This document shows positions 2,215 to 39,696 of a stretch of 41,034 nt of DNA, one piece after another (the stretch's first letter is position 1; every line of letters begins with the position of its first letter). Source of the DNA: a virus; IMG/VR virus record IMGVR_UViG_3300027687_000029, positions 1 to 41,034 of that record, one strand, 5' to 3'. The position numbers and the translations under genes were made by a program. Under the pieces are notes generated by a model. The model was given only the letters and a program-made list of their open reading frames with translations, had not been told where the DNA came from and did no database searches.

Positions 2215-3363
2215 TTATTGGCCTTCATTGATTATGTCAGATATTCTAATAGCTATTTCCATAAACTCCACATACTCTTTGCCTCTAGTAGTTTCTGCCG
2301 CAGTGCCTATGCGGATACCGCTAGTCTCTGTAAATGATCTATGGTCGTTTGGCACACCATTTTTATTTACGGTAATACCCTGTGCTTCCAGTGTATTCGC
2401 TAAAGCCTTACCACTCCATGCTGTGTTACTAAGATTTAATAGTAACAGATGGCTATCTGTACCAGATGTTTGAAGATCAATGTTGTTTTCTTTAAACTTT
2501 CTTGCCATGCACTGAGCATTAAACTTTACCTGTCTAGCGTATCTACTAAACTCTGGGGCCAAAGCCTCTATGAAGCACTGTGCTTTAGCAGCAATAATGT
2601 TCATTAAAGGACCGCCCTGAGTACCAGGAAATATAGCACTATTTATACGTTTAGTATAACCAGGATTGTTCCAAAGTATAATACCCCCTCGTGGCCCTCT
2701 TAGAGTTTTATGTGTTGTGCTAGTAACTACATCTGCAAAGTTTATAGGATTTTCGTAGGATTTTCCCGCTATGAGGCCGGAGTAGTGTGCCATATCTACT
2801 ACTAGCTTAGCACCTACACTATCTGCTATCTCTCTGAAAAGCTCCCACTGTATTTGTCGTGGGTAGGCCGAAGCTCCCGCAACTATTACTTGTGGTTTTA
2901 CCTCTTCAGCTTTATCTGCTACTAAATCGTAGTTGATCCAACCTTCTGGATCAACTCCGTAGGAAAAGCTCTGATAAACTTTTCCAGACTGATTTACACT
3001 TGCCCCATGAGACAAATGTCCTCCAGAGGCTAAATCCATACCCAATATTTTGTCACCCGGCTTTAGAAAAGCCTGATATACTGCTGTATTTGCATTAGCC
3101 CCGCTGTGAGGTTGAACATTGGCGAAATCTGAACCAAATACATCGCATACCTTAGAGATAGCAAGACTTTCAATAGCGTCCATGTTTTCACAGCCGTTGT
3201 AATACCTACGCCCAGGATAGCCCTCTGCGTATTTATTAGTAAATACTGATCCGCACAAAGCTCGCACTGCTTCAGATGCAAAGTTTTCGGAGGCTATAAG
3301 CTCTATAGTCTCGTTCTGTCTTTCAATCTCGTCTCCGAGTATGTTATATATTTGTCTGTCCAT
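2215..3363 (-). CDS. glyA: Serine hydroxymethyltransferase
   Basis: PLP-dependent SHMT converts serine and tetrahydrofolate to glycine and 5,10-methylene-THF. The family signature is clear: ELIASENF near 21-28, YAEGYPGRRYYNGC near 45-58 and the PLP-lysine motif STTHKTLRGPRGG with Lys219. FPGTQGGP follows near 245 and the C-terminal SGIRIGT near 348-354. At 382 aa it is somewhat shorter than typical bacterial GlyA (about 415-420), mostly at the C-terminus, but all core motifs are present. A phage copy is unusual. Its natural partner here is the phage ThyX, which consumes methylene-THF to make dTMP and returns THF. Confidence 0.95.
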   Translation of the reverse strand: MDRQIYNILGDEIERQNETIELIASENFASEAVRALCGSVFTNKYAEGYPGRRYYNGCENMDAIESLAISKVCDVFGSDFANVQPHSGANANTAVYQAFLKPGDKILGMDLASGGHLSHGASVNQSGKVYQSFSYGVDPEGWINYDLVADKAEEVKPQVIVAGASAYPRQIQWELFREIADSVGAKLVVDMAHYSGLIAGKSYENPINFADVVTSTTHKTLRGPRGGIILWNNPGYTKRINSAIFPGTQGGPLMNIIAAKAQCFIEALAPEFSRYARQVKFNAQCMARKFKENNIDLQTSGTDSHLLLLNLSNTAWSGKALANTLEAQGITVNKNGVPNDHRSFTETSGIRIGTAAETTRGKEYVEFMEIAIRISDIINEGQ

Positions 3364-4524: not shown

Positions 4525-6784
4525 ACTGCTTCTCGAATTTACCTAAAGAATAATCTTCGTGTACATCAAAGTCGCAGCCAACAGGTGTACCAGGAATGCT
4601 TACACCACGATCCATTTGTATAAACTCTCTGAGTTTATCTGAATAATGTTCTATCTCATCCTCTGGTACTTCAGCTAGAATAGAGTCGTGTACAAGAGCA
4701 AAGATGCGAGCACCCATCTTGTTAACACGAATATACTCTGACATATCAATACCGCCCAAAAGGTTGATATCTGATGCAGGTGACTGTACTAGAAAGTTCA
4801 GCCCTGATCTGATACTATGACTCTTGATACCTTTGTCCTCTGAAGCAACATTAGGTAGTCTGCGTTTGCGACCGAAGTAGCTATAGATAAATCCATTTAC
4901 TTCTATTGACTTCTGGTTCTTCTCTAGCCAAGATTTTAGCTTGTGGAAAGATCTGAAATAGTCGTCAATAACTTCTTGTGCCTCACTACGGCTAAAGTGT
5001 TTGCCGGAATCTGTTGTTACTTGCTGTGAGATTTTATTAGCTCCAGCGCCGTACATGATACCAAAGGTTACAGCTTTCGCCGCTTGTCTTTGCATCGGAT
5101 ATAGTTCTGCAACTTCTTCTGGCTCACAGGCTAGTCTAAATACTCTATGTGCAATGTTACTGTGGAAGTTACCGCCGGAACGGAATACATCCATCAGTGC
5201 CTGGTCATTAGCTAGAACAGCGGCAACATACACCTCTGCTGTAGTTAAGTCCATTGCGACAATTTTATTGCCGGGTGCAGCTTTAATGCAACCTTTGACA
5301 ATAGGGTTATCACGAGGTAATTGTTGCATATTTAACTTACCAGAGGAAGACAGACGACCACTGGTAGTTCCATGAAGATTGAAATTAGTACGCAGTCTGT
5401 TATCTCTATCAAGCTGCGGAATAATCTTATCTAAGTAAGTATTCTTGATCTTAGACTTTTGTCGTATCTCAAGGATGTGCTTGGGTACTGGATGTTTTCT
5501 ACTAAGTTCTTCCAGAACTTCTGCATCAGTAGAGTTTGCACCTGTGCCAGTCTTCTTGCCTGTGGGCTGTAAGCCGATATAGTCAAAAAGAAGTGCACGA
5601 AGTTGTACTGTACTATTTGCATTGAAGGGTTTGCCCTGAGCAGTTTCAAACTTACTAATTTCTGGTACCTTGTAAAGCTCCTCGATAGCAACGTCGATGT
5701 TGTCCTGCATAAGCTCCTGAGCAACAGACAAGCGTGATGGATCAAACGGAACACCATTATCTTGTGTAGTTAGAAGAAATCTAACCCCAGGAATAAGAAT
5801 GTTATCGTATACCCACTTTAGCTTAGGGTTCTGTTTAATTTTTACAAATTTCTCAAAGAGAGCGAAAGTACAGACAGCATCCATAGCTGCGTAAGTTTTC
5901 ATAGTATCGAATGGAATCATATCCCAAGTGAAACTTGCTTGGTTCAAACCATTAGCTCGCTTATGTTGATCTATCCAATCATACATAGGCTTTTCGTAAT
6001 CACCGTAAGGTGTGAACTTAATAGCTAACTGCTTGAGGCCATGCCCACCAGGGTTTTCATCAATTAGATAATGCAGTAACATAGTATCTTCGAATTTAGG
6101 AAAAACGAAGTTAAAGTGATACTGGAAGAACGCTAAGTCGAACTTCGCATTGTGGAAGATAACTGTGCGATTTAGGAATAATTCGCGTAGCATATCTTCT
6201 ATCTCTTCGTCAAAGCAATCTGTATCTATATAGACCCCGCTGAGACCGTTATACGACATAGAGATGCCGATAACGTGGCCGTTGCGAGGATATAGACCAG
6301 TAGTCTCTGAGTCAAGAGCAATTAGGTCATGACCATCAAAGTCTAGAGCACCCTGAATCCACTTCTTAGCTTCTTCAGTGTCTTGTATACCTCTAGCGAT
6401 GGTTTCATCAATGATTATATCTTCTATCTCACCATTAATGTAAGCTATGATACTATCTTTAGATGATTCCCAAGTCTTACGAGCTTCTGGCTTGAAGGCA
6501 AGCATAGCTGGGTTAATCACAGGCAGGAACTTACCTTCTACTTTTTTACCAGAATATTCCGTGACTGAATTGATTTTTGTAAAGTATTTCAGTGCATCAC
6601 TACCTACTAGGATAATCCATTCATAGGCATCTGTATCTATAACGATGTCACAGTCTTTTTTTAATACTTTTTTAAGTGTGGAATCGGAACACAATTGGTA
6701 ACGATCAAACTCGAAAGCCCCTTCAAACTCTTTTTGGAAGTCTGTGCGGCTTGATTTAGTTTCTACTAATGCAACTTTAGGCAT
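4505..6784 (-). CDS. polA: Family A DNA polymerase with 3'-5' exonuclease
   Basis: Replicative DNA polymerase of 759 aa. The N-terminal 150 residues are unassigned. The DEDDy exonuclease has DSETTG (158-163), HNAKFD (211-216) and YAAMD (298-302). The polymerase domain has motif A DLTTAEVYV (512-520) in place of the usual DYSQIELR, motif B RQAAKAVTFGIMYG (566-579) and motif C HDS (699-701). The residue matching E. coli Pol I Phe762 is Phe574. No 5'-3' exonuclease domain is present, as is usual for phage PolA. It overlaps the primase gene by 8 bp, indicating translational coupling in a polymerase-primase pair. Confidence 0.96.
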   Translation of the reverse strand: MPKVALVETKSSRTDFQKEFEGAFEFDRYQLCSDSTLKKVLKKDCDIVIDTDAYEWIILVGSDALKYFTKINSVTEYSGKKVEGKFLPVINPAMLAFKPEARKTWESSKDSIIAYINGEIEDIIIDETIARGIQDTEEAKKWIQGALDFDGHDLIALDSETTGLYPRNGHVIGISMSYNGLSGVYIDTDCFDEEIEDMLRELFLNRTVIFHNAKFDLAFFQYHFNFVFPKFEDTMLLHYLIDENPGGHGLKQLAIKFTPYGDYEKPMYDWIDQHKRANGLNQASFTWDMIPFDTMKTYAAMDAVCTFALFEKFVKIKQNPKLKWVYDNILIPGVRFLLTTQDNGVPFDPSRLSVAQELMQDNIDVAIEELYKVPEISKFETAQGKPFNANSTVQLRALLFDYIGLQPTGKKTGTGANSTDAEVLEELSRKHPVPKHILEIRQKSKIKNTYLDKIIPQLDRDNRLRTNFNLHGTTSGRLSSSGKLNMQQLPRDNPIVKGCIKAAPGNKIVAMDLTTAEVYVAAVLANDQALMDVFRSGGNFHSNIAHRVFRLACEPEEVAELYPMQRQAAKAVTFGIMYGAGANKISQQVTTDSGKHFSRSEAQEVIDDYFRSFHKLKSWLEKNQKSIEVNGFIYSYFGRKRRLPNVASEDKGIKSHSIRSGLNFLVQSPASDINLLGGIDMSEYIRVNKMGARIFALVHDSILAEVPEDEIEHYSDKLREFIQMDRGVSIPGTPVGCDFDVHEDYSLGKFEKQYGSYLL

Positions 6785-10961: not shown

Positions 10962-11879
10962 TTATACACGGCGTACAATACGCGGTATAATTTCTCCACT
11001 ACGAATAACTTCTACGTTACACCCGATCTCTAACTCTAGTTCTCGAATGTAATCTATATTATGTAGAGTGGCTCTAGCTACTTCTGCCTCACCTATAGTA
11101 ACAGGCTCTAGAATTGCTACAGGGCTTACGACCCCGCTCTTACCTACTTGCCATGTTACATCTAGTAGTTTAGTTACTACTCCTTCCTTCTGCTCTTTCA
11201 AGGCAAAAGCACCTCGTGGGTGGTGAGCAGTATGTCCTAACTCTAGAAATTTAGTATTGTCGTCAATACGATACACAGCACCGTCCGTAGGGAAGGGACT
11301 TGAATCGAAGTGAGTAACAACATTCATTCCAAGATGACTCAAGGCACCCATAGTAGACATATAAGTCTCTAAGGTACTTGGGTACACATCGTAAGCTACA
11401 AACGTAAGATCTCTACTAGAGAAAATCGATAAGTCTTTCAAGTTCAAAGAACCTGAAGCGTAGTTACGAGAGTTAGGTATACTATTAGGAGCAACAACCT
11501 CTCCGGTAATCTGAGTAAAATGTCCGCCATTAATAACATTAGGTACTAATAGCTTCATCTTATAAGTTATATCTCTGCCTACCTTACCATCACCGCGAGT
11601 TAAAGCCAACTCTAGGCGTCCATTAACATATAGCAAAGATACTGCTGCTCCATCGAGCTTGGGGGTACATACACAGTCGTTCACGTTTAACGGCGAATCT
11701 TCTATGTCGAAACATTTTTGGAGCGAGTACATTGGGTACAAGTGTGGCACACCGTCAGTAACAGTATGTCCTACATTGCTGTAGTTATACCTAGACGCTA
11801 GACTATCAAATTCATCATCTAATAGCATAGGAGTGCCTGCATAGTACAAACTACTTGCTTTGTCCAAAAAATTCTTCAT
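10962..11879 (-). CDS. NAD+-dependent DNA ligase, N-terminal half (adenylation and OB domains)
   Basis: Catalytic half of a split LigA, 305 aa. A short Ia-like segment (LYYAGTPMLLDDEFDSL) supplies NAD+ recognition. The nucleotidyltransferase core has the adenylated lysine in KLDG (Lys74) and RGDG at 95-98. The OB-fold region ends at IIPRIVRRV. It stops exactly where the zinc finger of full-length LigA would begin; that part is the separate downstream gene. ATG 11879 has GAGGGT upstream and a strong promoter 25 bp away. The ligase seals nicks and joins Okazaki fragments. Confidence 0.93.
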   Translation of the reverse strand: MKNFLDKASSLYYAGTPMLLDDEFDSLASRYNYSNVGHTVTDGVPHLYPMYSLQKCFDIEDSPLNVNDCVCTPKLDGAAVSLLYVNGRLELALTRGDGKVGRDITYKMKLLVPNVINGGHFTQITGEVVAPNSIPNSRNYASGSLNLKDLSIFSSRDLTFVAYDVYPSTLETYMSTMGALSHLGMNVVTHFDSSPFPTDGAVYRIDDNTKFLELGHTAHHPRGAFALKEQKEGVVTKLLDVTWQVGKSGVVSPVAILEPVTIGEAEVARATLHNIDYIRELELEIGCNVEVIRSGEIIPRIVRRV

Positions 11880-35808: not shown

Positions 35809-36171
35809 ATGGATTTAAAAAGAGACATCGTAAAATACATAAGAGACAAGGCAAAGAATAAGTATGAAAAAGGCACCGAGTGCCGAATATGTGGCGGTAA
35901 AGTTAAACTAGATTTTCACCACTTTCATACGTTAGCCCCTCTTATACATGATTACGTGGCAAAGAACAAACTAGACCCCAAGAATGTACTTTCTTTTAGA
36001 GAAGACTTCATAGCGGAGCATCAGTCAGAGTTGTACGAACATACGGTAACTCTATGCAATGCTCATCATTTACAGTTACATTCCATTTATGGGAGAAACC
36101 CTAGCTTAGGCACTGCGAACAAGCAGAAGAACTGGGTAGAGATTCAAAGAGAAAAGCATGGCATGGTATAG
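35809..36171 (+). CDS. HNH endonuclease-like protein
   Basis: 120 aa. C25-x2-C28 (CRICGG) and C83/H86 (LCNAHHLQLH) form the zinc ribbon, and FHHFH (37-41) holds the catalytic histidines. HNH proteins next to TerL and portal help the terminase cut concatemers in HK97-type phages. Alternatively it could be a homing nuclease, though it is not inside another gene. Confidence 0.82.
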   Translation: MDLKRDIVKYIRDKAKNKYEKGTECRICGGKVKLDFHHFHTLAPLIHDYVAKNKLDPKNVLSFREDFIAEHQSELYEHTVTLCNAHHLQLHSIYGRNPSLGTANKQKNWVEIQREKHGMV

Positions 36172-37378
36172 TAACATTTTTGGTGGTAAAGATGGCGAAG
36201 TTGAGAAAGCTGTCGATGAGTACATGGAAAAGTTAAATCCTATCCAATCCTACTTTGGTAATAACAAAGAAGGGTCTAGAGAATACACAGAGAATTATGA
36301 ACAGTTTTATGAAACGCTAGAGATTGTAAATCGTGGCGTAAACATGATTGTAGACGACGTAGCAGAGATTCCAGTAGTTGTTCATCCTAATCAGACGAAT
36401 GGCGTACAGAAAGGGATGAGAAGATCCACAGTAAATAAGCTACTCAACAAAGAACCTAATATGTTTCAAGATGTTAGTTCTTTTAAAAGAAACCTAATCA
36501 CTGATTACCTACTTGATGGTAATATCTTCATATACTACGATGGTGCTCACTTATACCATTTACCCGCAGACAGCGTAACAATACACGCAGATCCTAAAAC
36601 ATTTATAGAGAAGTACACATACAACGATGTAGACTATGGTCCAGACGAGATTATACACGTTAAGGAGAATTCCTTTTACTCTATCTTCCGAGGAACCTCT
36701 AGACTAAAGCCTGCTGTCCGCACAATGGCACTTACAACTTCAATGAGAAAGTTTCAAGATAACTTCTTTAAGAACGGAGCAGTACCAGGACTAGTATTAA
36801 AAAGCCCAAACACATTAAGTGAAAAGATTAAAGAACGAATGATTCAATCATGGAGCATTCGATATCGTCCAGACGCAGGTGGTAGACGCCCTCTGATTCT
36901 CGACGGTGGTCTAGAGATTGATAGTATTTCTAACGTAAACTTTAAAGAGTTAGACTTCCAATCTTCTATTACAGAAAATGAAACAATTATACTAAAAGCA
37001 TTGGGTATCCCACCTATCTTATTAGACTCAGGAAACAATGCAAACATTCGTCCTAATATGAGAATGTATTATCTTGAGACAATCTTACCTATCGTAAGAA
37101 AGATAAACTACGCTTACAGCCGCTTCTTTGGATATGAGATAAAAGAAGACGTTATAGATATCCCAGCTCTACAACCAGAGTTGAGAGATCAGTCGCAGTA
37201 CTATAGTTCGTTAGTAAATGGTGGTATTATTACTATCAATGAAGCTAGAACTCGGTTAGGCTTTGAAGCTCTAGAAGGACAAGACGATGTTAGAGTTCCT
37301 GCGAATATAGCAGGGAGTGCAGCCAATCCCGACGAGGGTGGCAGACCAACCGAGGATGACGAAGATGGCAGCGACTAG
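36158..37378 (+). CDS. Portal protein, HK97 family
   Basis: 406 aa forming the dodecameric ring at the capsid vertex. The family pattern is visible: NRGVNMIVDDVAEIPVVVHP near 58-77, LLDGNIFIYYDG, a stem/wing region, FFKNGAVPGLVLKSPNTLSE and AIKALGIPP-type segment (ILKALGIPPILLDSG). The C-terminus is acidic and disordered (PDEGGRPTEDDEDGSD). It overlaps the HNH gene by 14 bp. Confidence 0.93.
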   Translation: MAWYSNIFGGKDGEVEKAVDEYMEKLNPIQSYFGNNKEGSREYTENYEQFYETLEIVNRGVNMIVDDVAEIPVVVHPNQTNGVQKGMRRSTVNKLLNKEPNMFQDVSSFKRNLITDYLLDGNIFIYYDGAHLYHLPADSVTIHADPKTFIEKYTYNDVDYGPDEIIHVKENSFYSIFRGTSRLKPAVRTMALTTSMRKFQDNFFKNGAVPGLVLKSPNTLSEKIKERMIQSWSIRYRPDAGGRRPLILDGGLEIDSISNVNFKELDFQSSITENETIILKALGIPPILLDSGNNANIRPNMRMYYLETILPIVRKINYAYSRFFGYEIKEDVIDIPALQPELRDQSQYYSSLVNGGIITINEARTRLGFEALEGQDDVRVPANIAGSAANPDEGGRPTEDDEDGSD

Positions 37379-37643
37379 AAACAGAAAACGCAAAGTAGTT
37401 CAAGAAATGGGAATGTACTTTGCAGAGAAAGGATATGTTGTTCCTTTAGATGAGTACAAGCGTGCTAGTGATAGACCCGCTTTTCTTACTCCGAAAGAAA
37501 TAGTAAACGTAATGGGCTCTTATACTTCCGCAGTACAATGGATAGAGAAGTATGAACCAGAGCTATGGGGCCTTATTCATAAAGATGATAAAGATCCTTT
37601 AGCCGAGCTAGCCCAAGCAAAGCCGGGGAAAAAGAATGGATAA
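37365..37643 (+). CDS. Hypothetical head-region protein, 92 aa
   Basis: I choose ATG 37365 (MAATRNRKRKVVQEMGMYFA) with GAGGA upstream; the longer frame lies in the portal gene. Basic N-terminus, then a helical domain (PLDEYKRA; AVQWIEKYEPELWGLI). It overlaps the portal end and the next gene start. The function is unknown. Confidence 0.58.
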   Translation: MAATRNRKRKVVQEMGMYFAEKGYVVPLDEYKRASDRPAFLTPKEIVNVMGSYTSAVQWIEKYEPELWGLIHKDDKDPLAELAQAKPGKKNG

Positions 37644-39696
37644 AATTTTTAATTTAACCTCAACTTTCAAGACCCATGCCGTAGAAGATGGATCAGTAAT
37701 GATTCGTGGAATGGCAAGTACAGCCGATTTTGATCGCGCTGGTGATTCCATAGCAGCAGAAGCATGGAATAAAGGTGGGTTAAAGAATTTCGAAAAGAAT
37801 CCTATTATTCTTTTCAATCATGATTACGATCGTCCTATCGGTCGTGCTACGGGCCTGAAAGTAACAGAGAACGGCCTGGAGTTAGAAGCAAAAATTAGCA
37901 AGTCAGCACCCGCTAATGTTTGCGAATTAGTAAAAGAAGGTATCCTTGGAGCATTTTCTGTTGGTTTCCGAGTCAAGGATGCTGATTTCATAAAGGAAAC
38001 TGACGGATTAATGATAAAGGACGCAGAATTATTTGAGGTATCGGTTGTTTCCGTACCTTGTAATCAGGAAGCTACTTTCTCGCTAGCGAAGTCTTTTGAC
38101 TCAATGGATGAGTACGAAGAATTCAAAAAAACTTTCACAAATCGTGTAGATCTAGCCGGTCAGACTCTGGCTAAAGACGAAGTTAATACTTCTAGCGTAG
38201 CTAGTGATACACCGGACGGAACCGAACAGGTTCAAAAGGAGATACAAATGTCTGAAGTTAATACTCCAGAAATCGACTTAGCCGCATTTGCAAAGCAAGT
38301 AGCAGAAGAAACTGCTACCAAGATTGCCATGAAGCAAGCCGAACAGAAAGCCGCGGATGAAGCCGTAGCACAAGAATTAGTTGAGAAGACTGCAGCAGAA
38401 GCTGAAGCCAAAGCTCAACAAGAAGAAACAGTTAAGACTGCTGTAGTATCTGGTGTAACATCAGGTGCCGAGCGTTTACTAGCTGATATGCAAGCTGATT
38501 TCGCATCTAAAGGTGTTGAAACTGCTGAAGTATTAGAGAAGTATAAGTCTGAGTTGATGGAAAAATCAGCCGAGCTTGAAGCTATGCGTAACAGCAAGCG
38601 TGATTTCTCTGGCCGTACACAAGGCGTAGATGTTAAAGCAATGGGTGGAGACTTATTGTCTGCTCACATTCTAGGTAAGGTTACTGGCAAAGGCTGGGAT
38701 ACTAAATTTGGTCGCGAGACTCTAGAGAAAGCTGGCGTAACATATACTGGTACTGCTGGTGATGGTTCTGCAGTTGGTGTTGACGTAATCGTTTCAAATC
38801 AGTTTGAGATGGAAGTACGTCAGGCAATGAAGGTTGCTCCTTTATTCCGCGAAATTCAGGTTTCTAGTGGTGCTACTGTACTACCAATCGCTCCTGACAC
38901 CGAAATGGCTAACTTCAATGCTGGCGGTGCTGACGTGGCTAACAACTTGTTGGAAGAAGCTGGTGCTTCTGATAACAACTATAACGTTAATCAGGTTATC
39001 TTGCAAGCGCACAGATTGATCTCTAGTACGTTTATTCCTGCTGATACAGACGAGCAAATCGTTATTTCAGTACTACCTATGCTTACCTCAGCTCTAGCAC
39101 GTGCTCACGCTACTGCTATTGATTCAGCTCTACTAGTTGGTGCTGGTGCAGGTAACATCTCTAAAGGTCTAGTAGGTGTTAACGGCGCTGATAACGCTAA
39201 CGGTTTTGGCGCAGCTTCTGCTGGAACAGCACTTGACGCTTCTGGCGCTGGTGAAGTTACTCCTGCGGTTCTTCTTGGACTACGAAAGGAAATGGGCAAG
39301 TATGGTCTAGACGCAAGTCGTGTAGCATACATCGTTCCTACTGACGTATACTACGAGTTGATCGACGCATCTGGCTTTACCGATGTTACCGAAGTTGGTA
39401 GTGATTTAGCTACTAAACTTTCTGGTATGGTAGGAACCGTATTTGGTTCACCAGTAATCGCTAGTGATCGTTTGGTTTACAACTTGGCTAACGGTGGTGC
39501 AGTTACTACTACTGCAGCTATTGCTGTAAACATGGACAACTATGTGATTCCACGTTTGCGCGGCGTTAACGTAGAAACTGACTACATCGTCAAAGAGCAG
39601 CGTACCGTATTGGTCGCAACTCAGTCTCTTGGCTTTAACGAGTTAGTTGCTGGCGCGGGTTCTAATAAGCCTGCAGTTCGTTTACCTTACCAATAG
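37636..39696 (+). CDS. Prohead protease fused to HK97-fold major capsid protein
   Basis: A single 686-aa frame. Residues about 15-150 are the HK97-type prohead protease (RGMASTADFDRAGDSI; NHDYDRPIG with the candidate His; GAFSVGFR with the candidate Ser). Residues about 205-330 are an Ala/Glu/Lys-rich coiled delta/scaffold region, and 335-686 the HK97 capsid fold (AVGVDVIVSNQFEMEV; LLEEAGASDNNYN). A strong ribosome binding site and ATG at 38248 lie in frame at the protease-scaffold junction, so a 482-aa capsid subunit is probably also made directly. Codon use is strongly expression-biased. Confidence 0.9.
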   Translation: MDKIFNLTSTFKTHAVEDGSVMIRGMASTADFDRAGDSIAAEAWNKGGLKNFEKNPIILFNHDYDRPIGRATGLKVTENGLELEAKISKSAPANVCELVKEGILGAFSVGFRVKDADFIKETDGLMIKDAELFEVSVVSVPCNQEATFSLAKSFDSMDEYEEFKKTFTNRVDLAGQTLAKDEVNTSSVASDTPDGTEQVQKEIQMSEVNTPEIDLAAFAKQVAEETATKIAMKQAEQKAADEAVAQELVEKTAAEAEAKAQQEETVKTAVVSGVTSGAERLLADMQADFASKGVETAEVLEKYKSELMEKSAELEAMRNSKRDFSGRTQGVDVKAMGGDLLSAHILGKVTGKGWDTKFGRETLEKAGVTYTGTAGDGSAVGVDVIVSNQFEMEVRQAMKVAPLFREIQVSSGATVLPIAPDTEMANFNAGGADVANNLLEEAGASDNNYNVNQVILQAHRLISSTFIPADTDEQIVISVLPMLTSALARAHATAIDSALLVGAGAGNISKGLVGVNGADNANGFGAASAGTALDASGAGEVTPAVLLGLRKEMGKYGLDASRVAYIVPTDVYYELIDASGFTDVTEVGSDLATKLSGMVGTVFGSPVIASDRLVYNLANGGAVTTTAAIAVNMDNYVIPRLRGVNVETDYIVKEQRTVLVATQSLGFNELVAGAGSNKPAVRLPYQ
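38236..38250 (+). promoter_or_regulatory. Internal ribosome binding site and start for a separate capsid subunit
   Basis: AAGGAG followed by ATACAA and in-frame ATG 38248 (codon 205, MSEVNTPEID). The spacing of 6 nt is ideal and the site sits exactly between protease and scaffold segments, as in nested protease/scaffold genes of other phages. Confidence 0.8.

Follow-up and report, generated by a model that had tools for sequence, protein, structure and literature searches.

Proheads of HK97 contain ~60 proteases per 415 capsid proteins and those of phage D3 ~90 proteases per 540 capsid proteins (PMC12749128); how the correct small number of proteases is packaged in phages of the HK97 type is only partly understood. 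The nearest cultured relatives of the locus described here are the T5-like phages (T5 and DT57C; Demerecviridae), in which homologs of the protease and of the scaffold-capsid protein are encoded in this order too, with a related portal gene adjoining. In these phages the protease and capsid are separate genes, that is, the protease gene ends with a stop codon (TAA) and, after a gap of 15–17 nt, the capsid gene begins with its own Shine-Dalgarno (SD) sequence; we saw no hairpin there. Protease-capsid fusions are known from other phages: PAJU2 and possibly Nocturne116 (PMC8306868) and, further, Gifsy-2 and the members of the NCBIfam fusion families.

A fused protease-capsid gene and its relatives

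The window that we analyzed is a stretch of 41,034 nucleotides (IMG/VR virus record IMGVR_UViG_3300027687_000029, positions 1 to 41,034). Its portal gene (36158..37378, + strand) has its best matches in T5-like phages, and the neighboring adaptor gene, like the portal gene, is a head gene. A small ORF (37317..37643, +) precedes the protease, and its stop codon overlaps the protease start (ATGGATAA). From the ATG at 37636 to the stop codon at 39694–39696, 686 codons then follow in one frame (37636..39696, +) that encodes protease, linker, scaffold, and capsid; a sequence-only reading of this DNA had proposed such a 686-residue frame, and both the translation and the profile matches bear it out. 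Elsewhere in the window, a full-length serine hydroxymethyltransferase (2215–3363, –; PF00464, 466.9 bits) adjoins the replication genes, and a short NAD-dependent DNA ligase (10962–11879, –) of 305 residues has only the adenylation and OB-fold domains.

The HK97-type prohead protease domain, assigned from profile matches, comprises residues 1–157 (37636..38106, +); residues 13–157 match Peptidase_S78 (PF04586; 60 bits, above the curated cut-off of 21) and TIGR01543 (73.6 bits, above the curated cut-off of 59). His62 and Ser108 are invariant across the clade described below and likewise in the T5-like phages; they are candidate catalytic residues, a role taken from the protease family. The linker (residues 158–204; 38107..38247, +) is variable in both length and sequence and is predicted to be disordered. 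The nested ORF that follows (38248..39696, +) would encode a scaffold-capsid precursor of 482 residues. Its first part is a helical, delta-like scaffold domain (38248..38715, +, the downstream boundary being approximate), with helices at residues 215–324 in an AlphaFold model of low confidence (mean pLDDT 54) that we used for the domain outline only; any cleavage site in the scaffold would be placed by analogy with T5. The capsid domain (38716..39693, +, the start being approximate) is T5 pb8-like by both profile and structure: the profile matches the major capsid structures of T5 and DT57C (E-values of 1.9e-52, 5.6e-52, and 4.3e-49), the alignment with the mature T5 capsid chain begins at approximately profile position 370, and the best Foldseek matches, obtained with the low-confidence model as query, are 8ho3 and 8zvi. 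Against the NCBIfam protease/capsid fusion family NF045541 the protein scores 53 bits, below the curated cut-off of 525 bits, and NF045540, the ClpP-like fusion of Gifsy-2 (cut-off 475 bits), gave no match at an E-value of 0.1.

We collected relatives from IMG/VR by using the entire protein, its capsid part, and its protease part as separate queries and taking the best 80 loci from each search, below which split members of the clade could rank. The matches listed include 156 distinct related ORFs (a count that may contain a few shortened copies of one contig) from a group of uncultured phages, mostly marine, that we refer to as the clade. In contrast to the separate genes of the T5-like head module, all 156 of these distinct ORFs, like the ORF in the window, are a single frame without a stop codon, and this is so across more than 10 linker lengths. 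Seven more loci, from metagenome-assembled genomes of bacteria, have the same fusion, SD, and hairpin (vide infra). Split sequences occur in the set only for two T5-like phages that we added deliberately; the protease and capsid are also split in Vibrio phage VCPH. As for split intermediates between the clade and T5, a scan with a divergent member as the query gave no more than three loci outside the clade, all of them distant, and a search with a mixed profile gave back the clade.

An internal start signal behind a conserved hairpin

The protease/scaffold junction contains an SD sequence, AAGGAG (38236..38241, +), located 6 nt before an in-frame ATG (Met205; 38248..38250, +). This signal had been noticed from the sequence alone; its coordinates are exact, and every distinct fused relative among the matches listed (156/156) has GGAG-N6-ATG in frame at this junction. 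In the 83 distinct 60-nt junction windows from these matches, the ATG and positions –10 to –6 are invariant and position –11 is 99% conserved; most upstream positions are only ~35–65% conserved. Nearly all relatives have AAG, GAG, or CAG as the codon in which the SD begins, with AGGAG constant. Because the encoded residue varies while the bases are constant, the internal signal appears to be maintained as RNA; we rejected incidental SD-like codons for the same reason. In a scan of the 37636–39696 ORF for SD-like motifs, just one of the internal in-frame ATG codons, that of Met205, has such a motif. As judged from these alignments, the internal SD-ATG is not a chance site.

If the gene were expressed as a polyprotein only, every subunit would be the full fusion, from which the protease would cleave itself during assembly, and the SD-like bases would be incidental. 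The frame is open throughout, as this explanation requires, and PAJU2 is described as an autocatalytically cleaved fusion (PMC8306868). However, retention of the SD, spacing, and ATG at the level of bases despite changes in the residues would be unexplained, and the covarying hairpin described in the next paragraph would be left without a reason; we consider this explanation unlikely.

An RNA hairpin, GAACC-GAACA-GGTTC (38219..38233, +), lies upstream of the internal SD; this element, identified by recurrence and covariation, was missed in the sequence-only reading. A stem of 4–7 bp with a loop of 3–7 that ends 1–5 nt before AGGAG is found in 68/68 distinct upstream 30-mers from the matches listed, whereas 24% of dinucleotide shuffles form such a stem with 4 bp or more; the 68 sequences contain 32 different stem pairs. 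In three alignments of fixed geometry, 96–100% of the cells are paired and 9–19 cells are changed on both sides; the covariation score and paired percentage are matched by 0/500 shuffles, and the signal drops sharply when the partner is slid by 1–3 columns. The paired percentage is biased towards structure because the alignment groups were chosen for geometry, and we regard the changes on both sides of the stem as the stronger evidence. The folding energy of the 30 nt upstream is –7.67 kcal/mol (–2.97 kcal/mol for mononucleotide shuffles). The fold of the 80-nt junction alone is not exceptional (z –0.98); the case for the hairpin stands on its recurrence and covariation instead. No known Rfam element was found.

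Most other SD sites of the same contigs resemble their shuffles, so the hairpin is not a general feature of the ribosome binding sites in this group; the protease start shows a weaker hairpin tendency, and a simple stem count without energies is a less clean control for the other SD sites. By prediction, the hairpin has little influence on opening of the ribosome binding site (4.6 vs 5.0 kcal/mol), which makes a role as an insulator of that site unlikely, and the free turnover of the stem sequence speaks against a sequence-specific protein site. These patterns indicate that the internal SD, its spacing, the ATG, and the hairpin are selected as RNA; we infer that the hairpin belongs to the internal initiation signal.

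Sequences upstream of two other genes were noted in the same survey. In several relatives, a hairpin of the CCGCT/AGCGG type occurs before the protease start, where the upstream gene ends (e.g., L029 at about 4970–5000). In many relatives, a gene starting with MAQQLYFSRD (L021:6049, L067:9585, and similar) has a conserved CTTTTCAAG stretch before its SD, with no stable fold.

A short hairpin near an SD would also fit an mRNA with a processed 5′ end, and the free turnover of the stem sequence agrees with this as well. The linker could then contain a promoter or a site of RNA processing that yields another mRNA, with its 5′ end near the hairpin, as the sole template for the capsid precursor, the proteins being the same. 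A scan of positions 37600–38300 on both strands found no sigma-70-like promoter; this nested transcript, which RNA processing or another sigma factor, such as that of a phage, could still supply, seems to us improbable.

Away from the hairpin, the third codon positions of the linker are ~1.5 to 4 times more diverse and pN/pS is 0.48 (0.81 for the last 12 linker codons). The third-position bias and the pN/pS of 0.48 argue that the linker is translated and that the open frame is no accident, that is, by this measure the full fusion is also under selection, at the protein level. These data bear on the A-run (TTC AAA AAA ACT) at the end of the protease domain, where a frameshift would lead to stop codons downstream in the shifted frames; the main product of the first start would then be a short protease, only the capsid precursor would matter, and the fusion would be a by-product. 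However, several relatives (e.g., L036, L039, L040, and L062) have an interrupted run (AAG AAA), and the linker past it evolves as a zero-frame protein. As the run is not conserved, we discarded frameshifting as a highly improbable explanation.

Two proposed nested products and the dose of protease

We consider it likely, from the sequences compared here, that one mRNA is translated into two nested proteins: a chimera, for which initiation is weak, and a capsid precursor, for which it is strong. Ribosomes that initiate at 37636, where a weak SD overlaps the upstream stop codon, would produce the protease-linker-scaffold-capsid chimera; ribosomes that initiate at 38248, where a strong SD lies behind the conserved hairpin, would produce the scaffold-capsid precursor. 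The chimera, probably the minority product, would co-assemble via its scaffold-capsid part and carry a set dose of protease into the prohead, after which the protease would cut the linker and the scaffold. The hairpin may act as a docking site for the ribosome or protect the 5′ end of a processed RNA. Strong support for the proposal of the sequence-only reading, namely that nested starts yield the capsid protein alone in addition to the fusion, comes from the open frame and internal signal in 156/156 relatives (matches listed), the protein-level selection on the linker, and the covariation of the hairpin; the comparison with split relatives that it suggested agrees, the T5-like phages beginning their separate capsid gene at the equivalent junction.

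Indirect evidence points to the fusion as the minor product and the capsid precursor as the major one. In the relatives, the mean anti-SD energy is –8.3 kcal/mol for the internal start and –5.8 kcal/mol for the protease start, and the predicted site opening is 7.2 kcal/mol for the protease start vs 4.6 kcal/mol for the internal start. The weaker SD and less open site at the protease start agree with this division; the strength of an SD predicts the actual product ratio poorly. The minority of protease in the proheads of HK97 and D3 also supports a minor chimera. T5 and HK97 package free protease, so covalent delivery is unnecessary in general.

If two nested products are made, a single gene would set the dose of protease through the ratio between its two starts, and the shell subunit would be the carrier; this gives a clear prediction for the proheads. 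The hairpin-SD element would also be an unusual, well-conserved case of RNA structure selected within a coding linker.

Comparison with other fused and nested genes

The Pseudomonas phage PAJU2 and its relatives likewise have an S78 protease and a capsid in one frame; however, they are an unrelated fused lineage with a different capsid, and their SD spacing varies. PAJU2 itself, the fusion described as a self-cleaving polyprotein, has an SD-ATG at the junction, and most of the distinct fused PAJU2-like members (L320–L399; e.g., L317:2032-4035) have retained, between protease and scaffold, an AGGAG-type SD and an ATG that is in frame. In L375, L386, and L387 the genes are split at the junction, and the capsid ATG follows the stop codon by 12 nt. 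As a separate observation, the junction SD in PAJU2-like phages is often flanked by GCCC/GGGC and could sit in the loop of a hairpin.

The Gifsy-2 gene (NF045540) also combines three functions (protease, scaffold, and capsid) in one ORF; its protease is ClpP-like, unlike the HK97-type protease of the clade. In the Gifsy-2-like fusions (L400–L479), GAGGA located ~10 nt before an in-frame junction ATG is conserved, but the Glu codons that form it are conserved too; this is a weaker SD candidate, and conservation of the protein could explain it. Tentatively, we suggest that a nested start may be common in phages with protease-capsid fusions and that chimeric lattice subunits may set the protease dose by translation, with the ratio in the clade controlled by a hairpin-SD-ATG within translated sequence. 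Other protease-capsid ‘polyproteins’ that are annotated as single products may then be nested pairs. Our literature search found no publication about internal starts within protease-capsid fusions.

In the C/Nu3 genes of phage lambda and the UL26/UL26.5 genes of herpesviruses, the protease is an in-frame N-terminal extension of a nested assembly protein, and the two products share the C-terminus. As in C/Nu3, the gene of the clade has a conserved internal in-frame start with an SD and a stop codon shared by both frames. However, the nested product of C/Nu3 and UL26/UL26.5 is a separate scaffold, whereas that of the clade would be a scaffold joined to the shell subunit. Thus, fusions and nested starts are each known; what is new is the shell subunit as the nested product, together with a conserved hairpin.
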